Below, in pieces: positions 1,310 to 11,900 of a stretch of 42,856 bases of DNA. The stretch is from Flavobacteriales bacterium (GTDB lineage: Bacteria; Bacteroidota; Bacteroidia; Flavobacteriales_D; Sanyastnellaceae). The stretch is from positions 1 to 42,856 of the forward strand of contig JAIXWP010000009.1 of the NCBI GenBank assembly GCA_027491215.1, read 5' to 3'. The notes under the pieces are model-generated. The model made no database searches, was not told the DNA's origin, and worked only from the letters and a program-made list of their open reading frames with translations. The translations under genes and the position numbers were made by a program. Every line of letters begins with the position of its first letter. Position 1 is the first letter of the stretch.

Positions 1310-4024
1310 ATGATTAGCGAGGCTGCCGTCTTCTTCAATGAGGCGGCAGTTTTGCTTTTTAATCCAGTGAGTACAAACGAAGAACATATCGAATCTACCC
1401 CCAGCAATGGAATCGTCGAGACTCCTTTGATGAAGCAATACAATAGCATCAAAGTGAAATATCCCGATGCGCTTTTGCTATTTCGTGTGGGCGATTTCTA
1501 CGAAACGTTTGGAGAAGATGCCGTTCGCGCTTCGCGCATATTAGGAATTACACTCACCAAGAGAAAAAACGGTGCAGCAGCATACGTCGAACTCGCTGGT
1601 TTTCCGCATCACAGTCTTGACACCTATTTACCAAAGCTCGTTAAAGCAGGAAATCGTGTAGCGATTTGTGATCAATTGGAAGATCCTAAGCTCACCAAGA
1701 AAATTGTGAAACGCGGTATCACCGAACTCGTGACACCTGGCGTTTCTTACAATGATAAAACCATCGATGCTGCTAGAAATAATTTCTTAGCAGCTGTTTC
1801 TTTTGGTGGCACGCCCAACGCTCCGCAACAAGCGGGCGTCGCCTTTCTCGATATCACCACAGGTGAATTCGTTACCGCGCAAGGCTCGATTGATTATATC
1901 GATAAACTCATTCAAAGCTTTCGCCCCAATGAAGTGCTTTATCAAAAACAATTTGATCAAGCTTTCAAATCCGCTTTCGGCGATCGTTTCTATACGTTTC
2001 GATTGGATGAATGGGTTTTTACAAAAGAATTTGGAGTTGAAATTTTAACCAAACACTTCGGCACAAAATCGCTGAAGGGATTCGGTATCGAAGAATTACC
2101 TCTCGGGATTGTGGCTTCTGGCGCGGTATTGCATTACCTCGCGGAAACGCAACACGACAAGGTCGCTCACATTGCCACCCTCGGTCGTATCGAAGAGGAT
2201 AGATATGTTTGGCTAGATAAATTTACCATTCGCAATCTCGAACTCATCGGTAGTGCGAATGAAAATGCGAAAACACTCATTGACATCATTGATGAAACGA
2301 CCTCCCCGATGGGCGGACGTCTTCTTCGCAGATGGTTGTTATTGCCGTTGAAGGAGATCAATTTGATCGAACAACGTTTGTCCGTAGTAGATCATCTTCA
2401 TCGTCACCAAGAACTCCTCGACCAACTCACATCAGAGTTGAAACAAGTGGGCGATCTAGAGCGATTGATCTCGAAAGTAGCGGTAGGTCGCATCAATCCC
2501 CGCGAAGTGCAACAAATTCGCAGAGCGCTTGAAGCGATTCAACCGATCAAAGACTGGTGCGTACAATCCGACAACAAAGAACTCGCTGCGTTAGGACATC
2601 AATTAAACGCATGTAAAGACATAAGTGAACGCATAGCGCGTGAAGTTCATTCCGATCCACCTATAGCCCTTAATAAAGGCCAAGTGATAGCGGATGGCGT
2701 AAATGCTGAACTCGATGAACTGCGCACATTGGCATTTTCTGGAAAAGAAGTACTCCTTCAAATCCAACATCGTGAAGCAGAACGTACCGAAATTCCTTCG
2801 CTAAAAATATCTTATAATAATGTCTTCGGATATTATTTAGAAGTTAGAAATACCCACAAGGATAAAGTCCCAAAAGACTGGATCCGCAAGCAAACGCTGA
2901 CTCAAGCAGAGCGCTACATCACCGAGGAGCTCAAAGAATACGAGACAAAAATTCTCGGTGCCGAGGAAAAAATCGGTTCGATTGAATTGCGACTATTCAA
3001 TGAATTGGTGGCTGCTATCATGGAATACACTTCATCGATTCAGCTCAACGCTCAACTGCTCGCGCGCATTGACTGCATGATGTCGTTTGCAAAAGTGGCA
3101 ACGAAATACAACTATGTAAAACCTTCGGTGAATGATTCGAAGGTCATCAAAATATTAAACGGTCGCCACCCTGTGATCGAACGTTCTTTACCAACAGGTG
3201 AAGAATATGTCAGCAATGATATTTATCTGGACAATGACACCCAGCAGATCATGATGATCACTGGACCCAACATGTCGGGTAAATCTGCTGTATTGCGTCA
3301 GACGGCGCTCATCGTGCTATTGGCGCAAGTTGGAGCATTCGTTCCTGCTAGTGCTGCCGACATTGGTATTGTCGACAAAATTTTCACCCGCGTTGGTGCG
3401 AGTGATAATATATCAAGTGGTGAATCTACGTTCATGGTTGAAATGAATGAGACCGCGAGCATCCTCAATAACTTGAGCGATCGCAGCCTTATCCTCCTCG
3501 ATGAAATCGGACGTGGCACTTCCACTTACGATGGTATTTCCATTGCGTGGTCGATTGCTGAATACATTCACGAACATCCGAAGACAAAAGGAAAAACACT
3601 TTTCGCAACGCACTATCATGAACTCAATGAAATGGAAGGCATTTTCAAACGCATCCGAAATTTCAATGTGAGCGTGAAAGAAGTGGGACAGAAAATTATT
3701 TTCCTAAGAAAACTTGCGCAAGGCGGAAGCAATCACAGCTTCGGTATTCACGTTGCGAAATTGGCAGGGATGCCGAGCAAAGTCGTGGAGCGCTCGAAAG
3801 AAGTATTAGCACAACTTGAAAAATCTCACTCTAAGGAAAATCTTACGGGCGCTATTGAGCGCGTAGCCAATGATGCAAGCATGCAATTGAGTTTCTTTCA
3901 ATTGGATGATCCAATGCTCGAACAAATTCGTGAGGAAATTTTACATCTCGATATTAATACTCTCACACCTGTTGAAGCGTTGATGAAGCTCAACGAAATA
4001 AAGCGTCTACTCAGCGGGAAATAG
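1310..4024 (+). CDS. mutS: DNA mismatch repair protein MutS
   Basis: MutS recognises mismatches as a clamp and recruits MutL. The mismatch-reading motif [10 protein letters not shown] (Phe63, Glu65) lies in the N-terminal domain, with connector, core/lever and clamp regions following. The ATPase has Walker A GPNMSGKS near residue 652 and Walker B with [12 protein letters not shown] near 731, then THYHE. Length is 904 residues from ATG 1310, about 20-30 longer than usual for the family. The first 19 residues are hydrophobic, overlap a terminator-like hairpin and are not recognisable MutS sequence. GTG at 1367 (885 residues) is the main alternative. I keep 1310 because it lies 16 bases after a TAcgTTTG element. 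No mutL is nearby. Confidence 0.97.
1323..1360 (+). terminator. Terminator-like hairpin at the start of mutS (possible attenuator)
   Basis: CTGCCGTCTT (1323-1332) pairs with GAGGCGGCAG (1340-1349) over ten pairs, including two G-U pairs, with a 7-base loop. It is followed by an interrupted T tract (1350-1360). It has the shape of an intrinsic terminator on the + strand only. It lies between the candidate mutS promoter and the alternative GTG start at 1367, and inside the reading frame if ATG 1310 is used. Either it limits mutS transcription or it ends a short leader RNA. Confidence 0.55.
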
Positions 4025-5811: not shown

Positions 5812-6867
5812 ATGATTAAAAAATCGCTCATCGTTCTCTTGCACATTGGCTACTGGTCATTGTATCTCTTTTTGCTCTTTATCATTTTCGTTCTCACCAT
5901 TGCTTCACAAGGTGGAGCAAAAGGACAATTCTGGCCGATGCTATATGAATGGTCCGAGTTCATGCTTGTCATTGCAATAGTTCCTGGCGCTATTGGATTC
6001 TATGTTGGATACTCCATTCTATTCAAAAGATTTTTTGCAAGAAAAAAAATAATAAAGCTCCTGCTAGCAATGGCAGCAACCGCTCTTGTATGCTCCGCAG
6101 TTGGATTTTTAATGGCGCAAATCATCTACTCTGAGTTTCGTCTTTCACAAATTACCATTGAGGGAATCATTGCACAAGTGTTACTCATTTCATTCATGTC
6201 TGGCATCAACATGACCATCGGCATTATCATGCAAGGCTTCATTACCGCGTATTCTGATATCGCCGTGAAAGAAGAATTGACTAGAAAAAACACTGAAATA
6301 GAACTAGCCCTTGTTCGATCGCAATTGAATCCTCACTTTTTATTCAACACCATTAATAATATCGATGTGCTCATTCAAATCGATCCTGATAGAGCATCTC
6401 GTTATCTCAATGAACTTTCGCACATCATGCGTTACATGTTGTATGAAACCAAGACCGAGCGAGTGCCACTTTCAAGAGAAATTGATTACATGCACAAATA
6501 CATTGCACTTCAAAAAATAAGAACCTCCATTGAGAATTATGTAGTCTTCGAAGTGAAGGGCGATGTGGAAAGTGCGCGCATAGAACCCATGATACTATTG
6601 CCTTTTCTTGAAAATGCATTTAAACATGCAGAGAAAAATAAAAAAGAAAATGCTATTAAGGTCAGCCTCTCCGTGGAAGCGCAGCGTATATATTTTAAAT
6701 GTGAAAATACTTTTTTGAAAAAATTGGTAGTTCCTACAATTTCCAAGTCTAATGGGTTGGGCAATGAGCTCATCCAAAAACGAATTAGCTTGCTTTACGG
6801 TGAACATGAATTGCGTATGTATGAGCTAGACGAAGTGTATCATGTCGAATTAATTTTGCCAAGATGA
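5812..6867 (+). CDS. LytS/YehU-type sensor histidine kinase
   Basis: Four predicted membrane spans (about residues 8-30, 48-70, 82-104 and 118-142) are followed by a short linker and a His_kinase (PF06580) domain. The phosphoacceptor block is LRSQLNPHFLFN-like, with His175 and the EIDYMHKYIALQKIR segment after it. ATP-binding motifs are PFLENAFKHA (N box) and NGLGNELIQKRISLLYG (G-box region). There is no separate extracellular sensory domain, so the membrane part, perhaps together with the adjacent ABC permease, is the likely sensor. It overlaps the response regulator gene by 4 bases. Confidence 0.93.
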   Translation: MIKKSLIVLLHIGYWSLYLFLLFIIFVLTIASQGGAKGQFWPMLYEWSEFMLVIAIVPGAIGFYVGYSILFKRFFARKKIIKLLLAMAATALVCSAVGFLMAQIIYSEFRLSQITIEGIIAQVLLISFMSGINMTIGIIMQGFITAYSDIAVKEELTRKNTEIELALVRSQLNPHFLFNTINNIDVLIQIDPDRASRYLNELSHIMRYMLYETKTERVPLSREIDYMHKYIALQKIRTSIENYVVFEVKGDVESARIEPMILLPFLENAFKHAEKNKKENAIKVSLSVEAQRIYFKCENTFLKKLVVPTISKSNGLGNELIQKRISLLYGEHELRMYELDEVYHVELILPR

Positions 6868-7538
6868 GTTATACCTGCATCATCATAGAAGACGAGCCAT
6901 TGGCGGCAGAGCGATTGAAAACATATATTTCAAAGCATCGTCTTTTACAATTGACAGGTACGTTTGAATCGGGAAAAACAGGATTAGATTTTCTCAAGAA
7001 AAATGAAATAGACATTGTTTTTCTCGATTTAAATCTCGGAGAAATTTCAGGTATTCGTATTCTTGAAAACAATAGTATTCCTTCTCAAGTCATCATTACC
7101 ACCGCCTATCAAGAGTATGCCTTGAAAGGATTTGAATTAGATGTAGTCGACTATTTATTGAAACCCTTTGTAGAAGAGCGTTGGCTCGTGAGTGTAGAAA
7201 AGGCCATCAATCGGATCGAAGCTAAGCGCTCGGGAAATGATCGTTTCGTGATGATAAAGACCGAGCATCGTTTAGAAAAAGTATTTCTCCGCGACATTGT
7301 ATTCATAGAGGGAATGGGCGATTACCGCAGGATTCACACCATCCACAAAAAGATCATGACCTTACAAACCTTCCGAGAGATGGAAGAAATGTTTGATCAA
7401 TCCGACATTGTGCGCGTGCATAAGTCATACATGGTAGCAAAGAGTCGCATCACTAGCATCAGCAAAGACAAGCTCACCCTCCCCGATCGCGAAATCCCGA
7501 TCTCGGAGAGTTACAGAGGCGTAGTGACAAACGACTAA
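6864..7538 (+). CDS. LytTR family response regulator
   Basis: 224 residues. The receiver domain has the acidic pair IIEDEP near residues 8-12, the phospho-acceptor Asp55 in IVFLDLNLGE, Thr80 and Lys100 in DYLLKPF. A LytTR DNA-binding domain follows from about residue 125 (KVFLRDIVFIEGMGDYRRIH). LytTR proteins bind paired direct repeats upstream of their targets. The inverted repeat at 4058-4089 is the obvious place to look for autoregulation. This is the last gene of the operon; its stop codon lies within the left arm of the long inverted repeat. Confidence 0.95.
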   Translation: MSYTCIIIEDEPLAAERLKTYISKHRLLQLTGTFESGKTGLDFLKKNEIDIVFLDLNLGEISGIRILENNSIPSQVIITTAYQEYALKGFELDVVDYLLKPFVEERWLVSVEKAINRIEAKRSGNDRFVMIKTEHRLEKVFLRDIVFIEGMGDYRRIHTIHKKIMTLQTFREMEEMFDQSDIVRVHKSYMVAKSRITSISKDKLTLPDREIPISESYRGVVTND

Positions 7539-7675
7539 CTTAGTTACTAACTACTAGTTACGAGTGACTAGAGTAAATACTAGATGTGTAGACAGGCAGT
7601 CCCTTATAGACACTATAAAACTATCTCGCTAGTCGTTACTCTAGTCACTAGTCGTTAGTATCTAGTCACTAAGTT
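7537..7675. repeat. Long inverted repeat built of two opposed heptamer arrays
   Basis: The left arm 7537-7576 and the reverse complement of the right arm 7636-7675 agree at 33 of 40 positions; the last 13 bases of the arm (GTGACTAGAGTAA) are perfect. Each arm is itself a run of 7-base units of consensus GTKACTA: left gttacta, actacta, gttacga, gtgacta; right, reversed, gtgacta, gatacta, acgacta, gtgacta. The 59-base spacer contains a small TTATA/TATAA hairpin. Both outer ends include the stop codons of the convergent response regulator and clpX genes. It may end transcription from both sides. Confidence 0.9.
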
Positions 7676-8900
7676 ATGCTACCTTGAGTTGACTTAGTTT
7701 GCTTCTTGAGAATTTCTCTTTCGCGTAGGCCAATGTAACTTTGAATTCTTTTTCTTTTGATGATGGTAATTCGTACATCGCGTCCATCATGATGGCTTCG
7801 CAGATGCCTCGTAGACCGCGCGCACCGAGCTTGTACTCGATGGCTTTTTCTACGATGAAATCCAATACTTTTTTATCGAAGGTGAGTTTTACTCCGTCCA
7901 TTTCAAACAACTTCACATATTGCTTCACCAAAGCATTTTTTGGTTCTGTGAGAATTCTACGAAGTGTAGTTTCGTTTAATGGATCTAAGTGGGTCAATAC
8001 GGGGAAACGTCCGATCAATTCGGGAATCAATCCGAAACGCTTCAAGTCAAGTGGACTCACATACTGCAATAGATTTTCTTTATCTACCGACTCTTCTGAT
8101 TTTGAGCTGTAGCCAATCGCCGCGGTATTCATGCGGCGCTCGATAATTTTATCAATTCCATCAAATGCACCACCGCAAACGAACAACACATTTGCAGTGT
8201 TCACTTGAATCATTTTTTGCTCTGGGTGCTTTCTTCCACCTTGTGGTGGTACGTTAATGATCGAACCTTCCAAAAGCTTCAACAAAGCCTGCTGAACACC
8301 TTCCCCGCTCACGTCACGGGTGATACTTGGATTGTCGCTTTTGCGAGCGATCTTGTCTATTTCATCAATGAATACAATTCCGCGTTCTGCGCGCTGAACA
8401 TCATATTCCGCGTCTTGCAGCAAACGTGAAAGAATACTCTCTACATCCTCCCCAACATATCCTGCCTCTGTAAGCACAGTCGCATCTGCTATGCAGAAGG
8501 GCACGTGCAACATTTTTGCAATGGTCTTCGCAAGCAAAGTTTTACCAGTACCTGTCTCACCCACCAAAATAATATTCGACTTTTCAATTTCTACACCGTC
8601 CGAATCTTTTGCAGATTTCTGCATCAAACGCTTGTAGTGATTATACACCGCAACACTCAACGATTTTTTCGCGTCATCTTGACCAATCACGAATTCGTCA
8701 ATAAAACGCTTGATGTCTGCAGGCTTGTGTAATTCCAAATCCTTATCGCTTGAAGCAGGAAGCTTCGACTTCGACTCCTCACTCACGATTGCATTTGCCT
8801 GAGTAGCACAATCTTCACAAATATGTCCACTGATACCCGCGATGAGAATACTCACCTCGCTTTTTTTACGGCCACAGAATGAACAAGTAATTTCTTTCAT
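7674..8900 (-). CDS. clpX: ATP-dependent Clp protease ATP-binding subunit ClpX
   Basis: ClpX unfolds substrates and feeds them to ClpP. The start chosen (408 residues) gives the family N-terminus [10 protein letters not shown] with the zinc-binding Cys6, Cys9, Cys28 and Cys31. Walker A GETGTGKT is at 114-121, the pore loop GYVGED follows, Walker B is IVFIDEIDK, and the RKHPEQ pore-2 loop is present. The ClpP-docking loop reads IGY instead of the IGF of E. coli. The reading frame continues 27 codons upstream, but those residues are not ClpX-like. clpP is not next to it, unlike in many bacteria. A TAccTTTG promoter lies 21 bases upstream. Confidence 0.98.
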
Positions 8901-8921
8901 TTCGTTGAATTTATCAATATA

Positions 8922-8929
8922 CAAAGGTA
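8922..8929 (-). promoter_or_regulatory. Candidate clpX promoter -7 element (TAccTTTG)
   Basis: An exact TAnnTTTG match on the minus strand, 21 bases before the clpX ATG at 8900. No clear -33 element. Confidence 0.5.
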
Positions 8930-8932
8930 CTA

Positions 8933-8974
8933 CATATCGCGTAAATGCCGAAAAATGGTCATATTCGCGATATG
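8933..8974. promoter_or_regulatory. Perfect 9-bp inverted repeat in the clpX/helicase divergent region
   Basis: CATATCGCG (8933-8941) and CGCGATATG (8966-8974) are perfect inverted copies 24 bases apart. The right copy contains the ATG of the helicase gene and the left copy lies just upstream of the clpX -7 element, so a dimeric regulator bound here could affect both genes. It may also be chance. Confidence 0.45.
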
Positions 8975-11900
8975 AACTCACTTAAAAACTTTTATGTCCT
9001 AAAAAGTTCAGCGGGCAGCGGTAAAACCTATGCTTTGGTGAAATATTACTTGCAGTTGGCACTCCAATCGGAGTCGCCCTATTATTACAAGCACATTCTC
9101 GCCATCACCTTCACCAACGCTGCTGCTAAGGAAATGAAAGAAAGGGTCATCGAACGACTCCGTGAATTCAGTGATGCCAAGAAACTAGAGGAAAGTAAAA
9201 AAGGGTTGTTCAATGAAATTGCAGAAGCCCTCCAACTTCAGCCTCATGAGCTGGAACATCGGGCAAGACAGTGCCTGGTACACATGCTCCACAACTATGG
9301 GCTCATCGCCATATCGACTATCGACAGCTTCACACACAAGATTGTCCGCTCATTTGCACGCGACCTTCGTTTGCATCCCGATTTCAATATTGAAATGGAT
9401 ACCAATGCTTTTTCGGAAAAAATTGTGGACGCCTGCCTTGATGCCATTGGGTCAGATGATGAACTCACTACTTATTTGCAACAATTCACCCTCGAAAATT
9501 ATGAGGATGAAAAAGGCATGAAAGTGCGTGCAGCACTCGAGGATGTAAGCAGGCAGCTTTATAATGAAGATGCGAAGGATGTGCTTCCAACACTCGAACA
9601 CTTGTCGCTGCAAGACTTCCGCACGCTGCAACAAAAATTAAAAAAAGACATTGCTGTTTTTGATGAAAAAATAAAAGCTCCTGCATTGGCTGCAATCGAG
9701 CTTATCCGCTCCAAAAATCTTGAGATAAGTGATTTCGCTTATGGCAAGAGCGGAGCCGTGTCTGTCTTCTTCAAATTTGCCGATGACAACTTTGAAATGG
9801 GCACGCGTTTTACAAACCCTCGAAGCAGCACGAGCCGCTGGTGGAGTAGATCGGGAAATAAAGATGCTATAGAACGGATCCAAGAATTAGAAGAACAACT
9901 CGAGGCTTATCGCTCCATCATGGTCGAGTTGTTTACCTCCGATGAAAAGAAGTCGGTAGAAGTCAAGCGAGCTGCAGTAAAGGTGGTCTATTCAATGGGA
10001 ATGTTGGCGCGTCTATCCACGATTGCACAGCAAATCAAAGAAGAAGAGAACACCATTCTGATCAATGACTTCCAAACCATCATCAATGAAATTGTAAACG
10101 ACAGTCCCGCTCCATTCATTTATGAGCGCGTAGGAGAACGCTATAATCATATCCTCTTCGATGAGTTCCAAGACACTTCTGGAATGCAGTGGAATAACTT
10201 CCTTCCACTCATCGAAAACGCACTTTCAAAAGGCAGTTTTAATTTGATTGTTGGGGATGGAAAACAAGCGATATATCGTTGGAGAAATGGTAAAGCAGAA
10301 CAGTTTGTTTCCTTGCCGGAACTCCTCGGAAACCATCCTCCAGAGCGCAGACAAGCGCTTCAACACAATTATGAAAAAGGTATTTTGAGTGCGAACTATC
10401 GAAGTGCCAAGAATATTATTTCATTCAATAATTCCTTCTTCGATTTTGTGCAAAGTGATCCCAACATGTCATTTATCCAAAAAGTATATGAAGATCAAGC
10501 GCAGGAAGAAAAGAGAGACCGCACAGGCTATGTTGAAGTAAAAATTACTGCGAACAAAGAAGGTAGCGTTCGTGATCAATTTATCCAAGATATTGTATCG
10601 AACGTTCGTTCGGTTTTAGATCAAGGTTACCTCCCGGGCGATATCGCCATCCTGACACGCAAAGCGGGGAAAGAAGCTGGTCCCATTGCGAAAGCATTGC
10701 TAGAAGTGAGTATTGAAGTCGTTACAAGAGAAAGTTTTCTCTTGAGCAATTCGGCCAAGGTGAAGCTCATTATGGCCTATATCCGGTTCTTGTGCCAGCC
10801 TGATCATCTGTATTCGAATGTGAGTATTTGGCAAAACCTATGTGTGTTATATCCCGAAAAATTCGAGTTGAAAAAGCTCGTGGCATCATATACGATTCCA
10901 CACGATAGAACACTCCTTCCCGATATCCAACGTTTTCTTGAAGCCTACTATCCATCAGCCCTAGAGATAGGATTATTGCGCTCCCCCATTGAGATTGCGG
11001 AAAGCATTATTACTTGCTTTGGACTCACCAAAGACCCTTTCGTTGAATTTCTAATGGATCACTTGACTCGACTTTCAACCCAAAAAGACTTGAGCCTTCA
11101 GCAAGTGACTGAGTGGTGGGAAGAACGCCAACATACACTGTACACTTCTTCGCAAGAAAGCAATCAGAAGGTCAATATCATGACCATTCACAAGAGCAAA
11201 GGACTGCAGTTCCCGGTGGTGATATATCCACGATTTGGAACCAAGGATCCCGCACGAACTTTATGGCTTGATGTAGACAAGGAAGAATTGGGTATTGAAA
11301 AAATTCTTTATTCTCAAGGGAAAAATAAAGTAGAAGACGGCATGACCGAAGGAATGATTGCCGATATAGAGAACAGTGCTTTAGACCAAATAAACCTCTG
11401 CTATGTGGCTACGACCCGCCCAGAGGAGCAATTGTATATCGTCATCGAGCAAGACCGAAATGTGGATGCAACCTCCAAGTTGATCATAGCCTTCGCAGAA
11501 AGTAAAATGACCTCAACTGATGGAGTCTACTCCATGGGAGAAAAGCAGGGGCCCGTTTCTAAAAAAATTCACCCACTTGTCACCAAAAAAATTGACGGAA
11601 CGCTAAAACCGAATATTCATTCAGTTCAGCTACGCTATACTTTCTTAAAAGACAAAATTATTTCACAACAAGAACAGCGCTTGCTTGGAACCGTTATTCA
11701 TGAATGTTTATCGATGATTAAAACACCCGTGGATATTCCACGTGCTATTCAATTGATTTTACCGAAATACCCAACGATTCAGCAGAGCCAACGAGAGGAT
11801 ATTGCTGCAGAGCTGCGTCGTATCGTTGATCACGAGTTGCTGCGCAAGTGGTTTAGTGCAGAAGTAGAGATGTACAATGAGCAAGAAATTATACTTCCCA

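Follow-up and report, generated by a model that had tools for sequence, protein, structure and literature searches.

What is the pair of inverted heptad arrays that separates a response regulator gene from clpX in the window, the 42,856-nucleotide stretch of DNA analysed here, and how did it come to lie there? The arms at 7537-7576 and 7636-7675 match in inverted orientation at 33 of 40 positions, and the extended arms at 7536-7583 and 7629-7676 match at 39 of 48. Each arm has a period of seven bases, with a lag-7 identity of 29/57 in the left arm (7520-7583) and 22/41 in the right arm (7629-7676), in both cases the highest fraction among lags 4-12. The arms run to both flanking stop codons. 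The original prediction had described this arrangement, and had named a random-sequence control as a possible refutation. The inverted-alignment score of 30 is the maximum of the 42.8-kb window, in which the runner-up, at an unrelated place, scores 17, and 20 windows generated by a first-order Markov model reach at most 19, which leaves the prediction standing.

Structure and setting of the element next to clpX

The element is 141 bp long and non-coding, and consists of two inverted heptad arrays around a core of fixed length. The features of the locus are as follows.

6864-7538, + strand: LytTR response regulator gene (Pfam Response_reg and LytTR, ORF), whose stop codon (7536-7538) lies within the left end of the element
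7536-7676, no strand assigned: complete miniature hairpin element; this copy, one of seven complete ones, lacks the S23 gene described below; inverted arms 39/48
7536-7575, + strand: left arm, made of heptads of ACTA plus three bases (period 7) and ending in the inner motif GTGACTAGAGTA (7564-7575)
7576-7636, + strand: core of 61 nt separating the two inner motifs; the alignment shows it to be partly conserved from copy to copy
7637-7676, - strand: right arm, with the inner motif TACTCTAGTCAC (7637-7648) and inverted heptads, recognised by arm match, motif and period
7674-8981, - strand: clpX (Pfam zf-C4_ClpX and AAA_2), whose stop codon (7674-7676) lies within the right end of the element
1310-4024, + strand: mutS (Pfam), ending 3.5 kb from the element
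1129-1220, + strand: second heptad array, upstream of mutS, with ATTCGTA and TCATTTG (ATTTGTC) units around the palindrome TTCTCGGCAAAGCCGAGATC (TRF and sequence)

A long hairpin from either strand had been predicted and is found: the element folds at -48.7 kcal/mol as + strand RNA and at -54.1 kcal/mol as - strand RNA (z = -5.0 each), and none of 200 shuffled sequences folds as low. It has stops in all six frames. Between 6800 and 8400 of the window no Rfam match reaches the gathering threshold, the single IS009 match, upstream of the element, being far below it; phage records gave no match to 6900-8900. As a separate observation, the TTCTCGGCAAAGCCGAGATC palindrome of the second array recurs in both arms of an S23 unit (L219).

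As judged from gene order, the junction that holds the element has been rearranged: two sister species have clpX and mutS in an order that is broken at this point. In both G002 (by tblastn) and G001 (by reading the sequence), mutS directly follows clpX on the same strand, without heptads. In the window it is the element that comes after clpX, with mutS past four other genes and on the opposite relative strand. The clpX product ends in KVA before the stop in the window and in both sister species (read from the sequence), and the terminator-like hairpin found 3' of clpX in the sisters now precedes the mutS start in the window genome. A lack of heptad periodicity in relatives had been named as evidence that would count against the feature; the sister species do have heptad arrays, though none at the clpX junction.

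Copies in the genome and empty sites in sister species

A genome-wide search was run on the 3.17-Mb assembly (150 contigs) with a 153-base stretch as query. It finds seven complete copies including that of the window, to which the other six are 76-82% identical, together with many places that hold an arm only. Both inner motifs are present in all seven copies, with one mismatch at one end in the copy on contig C22. The span over both motifs is 85 nt in six copies and 86 nt in one, with a core of ~61 nt, whereas the heptads of the arms (ACTA plus a triplet) vary from copy to copy in both number and kind. The interior between the arms is also part of the recurrent element, which a single stretch could not have revealed. 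Five copies lie between convergent genes, one in a co-directional setting (C39) and one in a divergent setting (C31); for C39 and C42 the setting was determined by manual reading. In the genome_contigs set, the exact pattern of two inner motifs at that spacing had no match, and in a BLAST search of 60 relatives matches to the element are confined to the genus (3 of 60 genomes). The alignment of the copies folds as one hairpin, in which two of 44 pairs are changed on both sides (covariation term +0.45). Since this covariation is weak, we take the symmetry to be maintained in the DNA repeats themselves and not by selection on RNA pairs.

Eleven protein segments from genes flanking six of the copies were searched in G001 (69% complete) and G002, and the junctions were read. 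Empty sites are seen for C133 and C22 in both sister species and for C39 in G001. At the C133 locus, two genes of the sister species converge on a short heptad-free spacer; in the window genome the element directly follows a terminator-like T-run, and the right-hand protein ends in KGT/LVTSD as against EGKKV and HGSKVVSS. At the C22 locus, a LuxE-like gene and a response regulator gene are adjacent in both sisters and the element unit lies between them here, the LuxE-like protein ending in CNL/LVTSY as against CNLMVV and CNLMVI (the regulator side is based on the contig's last bases, which are common to contig C115). At the C39 locus, two genes that are 16 bp apart in G001 have the element between them here, and the left protein ends in GK/ISD as against GQLK. 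Because the flanking genes are adjacent without the element in sister species at these three copies, we conclude that it was inserted at gene 3' ends. On this comparison of junctions, the arms supply new last codons and stops that replace the native protein ends. For C31 and C115 no clear empty site was found in G001 or G002, the neighbours being unmatched or paralogous. No target-site duplication was seen by eye in the junctions read, whose flanks have diverged. The earlier idea of a recombination product holds in that the window copy sits at a rearranged junction, but what sits there is a dispersed inserted unit and not a one-off by-product.

In C22 and C133 the element end CTAA abuts an A-run, which in C133 is the other strand of the T-run of the terminator-like hairpin; in C39 an A-run borders CTC, the outer end of the array. 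These junctions (L067, L074, L073) hint at a preference of the element for A/T tracts.

S23 genes between inverted heptad arms

The unit on contig C22 carries, between cognate heptad arms, a PF05635 gene (23S_rRNA_IVP) encoding an S23 four-helix bundle protein with sequence similarity to an unnamed protein of solved structure (2rld). The spacer of G002 that matches the S23-less copy on contig C42 holds a 70% identical S23 gene with long ACTA arrays on either side, and one of the neighbouring genes has the reverse orientation there. Nine of the ten PF05635 matches in the genus have repeat arrays on both sides; the tenth (L220) has them on one side and reaches the contig end. Eight of these nine two-sided loci have heptads, of several sequence families, and one (L217) has REP-like palindromes. 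In a set of ten S23 loci, no Rfam match reaches gathering. The ends of the miniature elements resemble those of the S23 units, and the miniature interior shows short similarity to S23-unit ends, with scores of 14-18 against shuffled maxima of 13-15 (inner motifs included).

We also considered C115 as a derivative of C22 from which S23 had been deleted. The alignment fits, but the ~100 identical bases shared by the two look like an assembly fork, and we do not rely on it. In the regions compared (C22, L067 2067-2412; C115, L068 760-1104), the identical stretch comes after element ends that are more diverged, and has the look of a forked assembly, of a duplication or of variation between strains.

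At the level of sequence, then, there are dispersed copies, empty sites, and a site that is S23-less here yet S23-bearing in a sister species. We consider it probable that the feature is a MITE-like, S23-less member of a repeat family whose fuller member carries the PF05635 gene within like arms. That the window copy itself has no S23 gene was counted against this reading.

Sequence comparison shows inverted heptad arrays framing S23 genes in several phyla. In the family there are 131 PF05635 matches in 39 of 114 genomes. From these, 75 loci were chosen by score and genome and not by their flanks; eight were dropped because their flanks were shorter than 150 bp, and eight of the remaining 67 are the genus loci that prompted the idea. 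Strong inverted flanks (score of at least 25) occur at 47 of the 67 loci, or 39 of 59 without the genus loci, as compared with 0 of 27 clpX loci and 0 of 30 genes of the window; as a control, clpX is one gene, a long one, whose size and setting are not matched to those of S23. Among lags 4-12, lag 7 comes out best at 38/67 S23 loci versus 3/27 clpX loci, and strong period-7 arrays are found at 25/67 versus 1/27, with another period at up to 7/67. Strong arms are lacking at 20 of the family loci, and periods of 6 or 8 are seen at some family loci.

Of 296 genomes sampled across the phylum, each at least 90% complete, 235 have PF05635 matches. The pattern is weaker in a phylum-wide sample of 30 S23 loci taken from among the best-scoring matches: strong inverted flanks are present at four, and lag 7 is best at 19. 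The inverted scores nevertheless exceed those of swapped pairs (p ~3e-7, as against p 0.90 for clpX).

A tblastn search of named plasmids with the S23 protein of C22 gave 26 places in 25 records, of which the best place per record was examined. Twenty records are cyanobacterial, 11 of them from Nostoc, and the rest come from Bernardetia, Treponema, Monoglobus and two Chlorohelix. Strong inverted arms frame 20 of these 25 S23 loci, compared with 2 of 85 other CDS taken from two of these plasmids, and lag 7 is best at 24/25 versus 22/85; a Planktothrix set and three Nostoc plasmids are near relatives, so the 25 loci represent fewer than 25 independent events. In Nostoc sp. C052, four AATTCGT-type heptads per arm are perfectly symmetric around the S23 gene.

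Some of the plasmid S23 genes (L348-L372) are embedded in gene sets for defence or mobility: two are found between cas2 and cas1 (L357, L360), one between drmD of DISARM and a PglX gene (L356), one between genes for type I R-M subunits (L371), and two near XisH/XisI (L358, L365).

The sequence of the arms tracks the S23 lineage. Flank sequence is shared (score of at least 30) in 27 of 28 S23 pairs that are at least 60% identical, in 0 of 12 pairs at 50-60% identity, and in 1-5% of pairs below 50%. Many of the pairs that share flanks are orthologous loci, which is the trivial case. In four pairs (L212/L214, L246/L280, L268/L270 and L273/L281), however, arm or inner scores are 31-125 while outer flanks score 12-13, so either the arms move with S23 or S23 finds them. 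We examined the idea that the arms are merely a pre-existing target; it is disfavoured by same-lineage S23 genes with similar arms at non-homologous loci. It is possible that S23 seeks out its own kind of arm.

A different origin would be growth of the heptad arrays by slippage, with inversion through template switching and S23 genes merely landing in repeat-rich neutral spacers. Polymerase slippage has been proposed for heptamers (accessible text of PMC4692102), and ACTAGT is self-palindromic, which would make flips easy. At three contig ends of G002 (L131, L137 and L138), arrays of ~40-55 ACTA heptads are S23-free in the stretch read; these arrays run to the contig ends, so the repeats break assemblies and the lengths seen may differ from the true ones. 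Arrays of four ACTARNN units are also patchy in the order (57 of 399 genomes), and the reversed control pattern occurs in 20 of 399, so many other heptad families exist. Slippage, however, cannot make an inner span fixed at 85-86 nt with a partly conserved core in seven copies, and the arms follow the S23 lineage at non-homologous loci as well. The inverted arrangement is also commoner than direct flank similarity (47 versus 18 of 67 family loci, 20 versus 7 of 25 plasmid loci), and the other plasmid CDS scarcely share it. We regard slippage as an unlikely explanation.

Mode of spread and relation to known systems

The original prediction offered a two-way terminator as one role for the hairpin, and the element might indeed be a bidirectional terminator or an mRNA 3'-end stabiliser, with a REP-like function selected between convergent genes. 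The five convergent settings among seven copies and the strong hairpin on both strands agree with this, as does the parting of clpX from the terminator-like hairpin of the sister species. But convergent spacers are also simply tolerant sites, one copy each is divergent and co-directional, and the weak covariation does not favour selection on the RNA. No terminator-like site or U-tract was found at 7400-7800, and the element does not show the G+C-rich stem followed by a U-tract of an intrinsic terminator. At C133 and C22, moreover, a separate terminator-like hairpin is kept beside the element. Termination as the reason for its existence is not supported, and we think a terminator or stabiliser improbable. 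A role as an RNase III site, also suggested at the outset, is plausible by analogy with the 23S rRNA intervening sequence (IVS).

Under the favoured reading of an S23-less member of an S23 family, the element would be a selfish hairpin that S23 moves or that travels along with S23. The units may be relatives of the 23S rRNA IVS that spread outside rRNA as hairpin units. S23, or an enzyme recruited by it, would recognise the hairpin or the heptads and move both full and S23-less copies, and we infer that S23 moves the element. Each of the eight listed heptad types gives stops in all six frames. Persistence at gene 3' ends would follow from the stops that the arms place in all frames, and the transcript would fold as a long stem that RNase III could trim without harm, as in the rRNA IVS; tolerance at these sites would then be due to both properties. 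Slippage of heptads would lengthen and alter the arms, and inverted copies may promote local inversions. To our knowledge, S23/IVP proteins have no agreed function, and neither a nuclease nor a transposase activity has been described for S23. PF05635 resembles Avd, the helper of diversity-generating retroelements (accessible text of PMC10053308), so a role of S23 with a nucleic-acid-copying partner is possible.

More tentatively, and short of an even chance in our judgement, S23, inverted heptad arms and S23-less miniatures may form a mobile class that crosses phyla, with S23 as its mobility factor and the rRNA IVS as its best-known landing site; the heptamers of Cyanobacteria and Bacteroidota would then largely be its arms and footprints. 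S23/IVP proteins are widespread, and the spread of the IVS and the reason for bacterial heptamer repeats are old questions. If true, the rule that S23 lies within inverted heptads, together with lineage-tracking arms and S23-less copies, would unite the puzzles of S23, the IVS and the heptamers in one testable system and would supply substrates that can be put to the test in assays of binding and mobility. There is a warning in it too: heptad arrays alter gene ends and break assemblies.

IVSs of 23S rRNA with an S23p ORF occur in Leptospira and others. In Coxiella, the accessible text of PMC4990558 describes an S23p ORF in the loop of a 28-bp terminal stem, an IVS removed by RNase III, and two or three GACAGAT heptads upstream of the ORF. 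It also recounts older proposals in which the IVS is what remains of a transposition, or is a mobile element that relies on its ORF for movement. The S23p ORF between terminal inverted repeats, the long stem and the upstream heptamers are thus points of likeness (same source). The window element has terminal inverted repeats that form a long stem; an S23p ORF is absent from it and present in the cognate C22 unit, and it lies between a response regulator gene and clpX instead of in a 23S rRNA gene. The units here differ from the IVS in lying between protein genes, in being multi-copy, in having arms of many unrelated repeat sequences and in having an S23-less miniature form.

With MITEs the element shares its short length (141 bp), its dispersal in seven complete copies, the lack of an ORF of its own, its terminal inverted repeats and the empty sites in relatives, which are seen at C133, C22 and C39, the window copy's own junction being rearranged. 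It differs in that its arms are tandem heptads, no target duplication was seen, and the partner gene is S23 and not a known transposase. The feature is MITE-like by structure and IVS-like by partner gene, and by strict tests a full member of neither. The original prediction knew of no named element with this structure; none fits fully, and these two kinds come nearest.

The STRR of cyanobacteria are heptamer repeats in intergenic 7-bp tandem arrays. Arrays of this kind are also known from Beggiatoaceae, Bacteroidetes and Xanthomonas (accessible text of PMC4679880 and PMC4692102), and the intergenic tandem organisation of the STRR, the TAACTGA repeats (PMC4679880) and the GGGAATC repeats of Xanthomonas (PMC4692102) resembles that seen here. 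As far as the accessible text goes, GGGAATC repeats form inverted pairs in two Xanthomonas genomes (70 and 75 cases; PMC4692102), and TAACTGA repeats lie mostly just upstream of start codons (PMC4679880), whereas the window has ACTA+NNN units, placed at the 3' ends of a pair of genes. In their accessible parts, neither of these two papers contains the terms S23 or four helix, and those of PMC5524665 and PMC10910872 hold nothing on S23 flanks. A literature search, with most subscription journals outside its scope, found no S23 genes with flanking inverted heptad arrays outside rRNA, which leaves novelty unproven.

A further system for comparison is that of REPINs and RAYTs, in which a gene is flanked by inverted repeats, doublets of the same repeat are dispersed, and the arms go with the gene lineage. 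All three traits are paralleled here, and the two inverted arms around a spacer, in dispersed extragenic copies, would suit a REPIN-like element that a RAYT-type Y1 transposase mobilises, as would the small REP-like palindromes also present in the window genome. The framed gene here instead encodes a four-helix bundle protein, and the cognate PF01797 protein was found in 0 of 3 genus genomes (one 69% complete) against 5 of 14 control genomes in the same search, which makes this origin very unlikely.

The small REP-like palindromes themselves (CGAGCGAAGCGAGTACC and its kin; L070, L069, L071, L072, L217) come after some of the single heptad arms, and one S23 gene is flanked by them.
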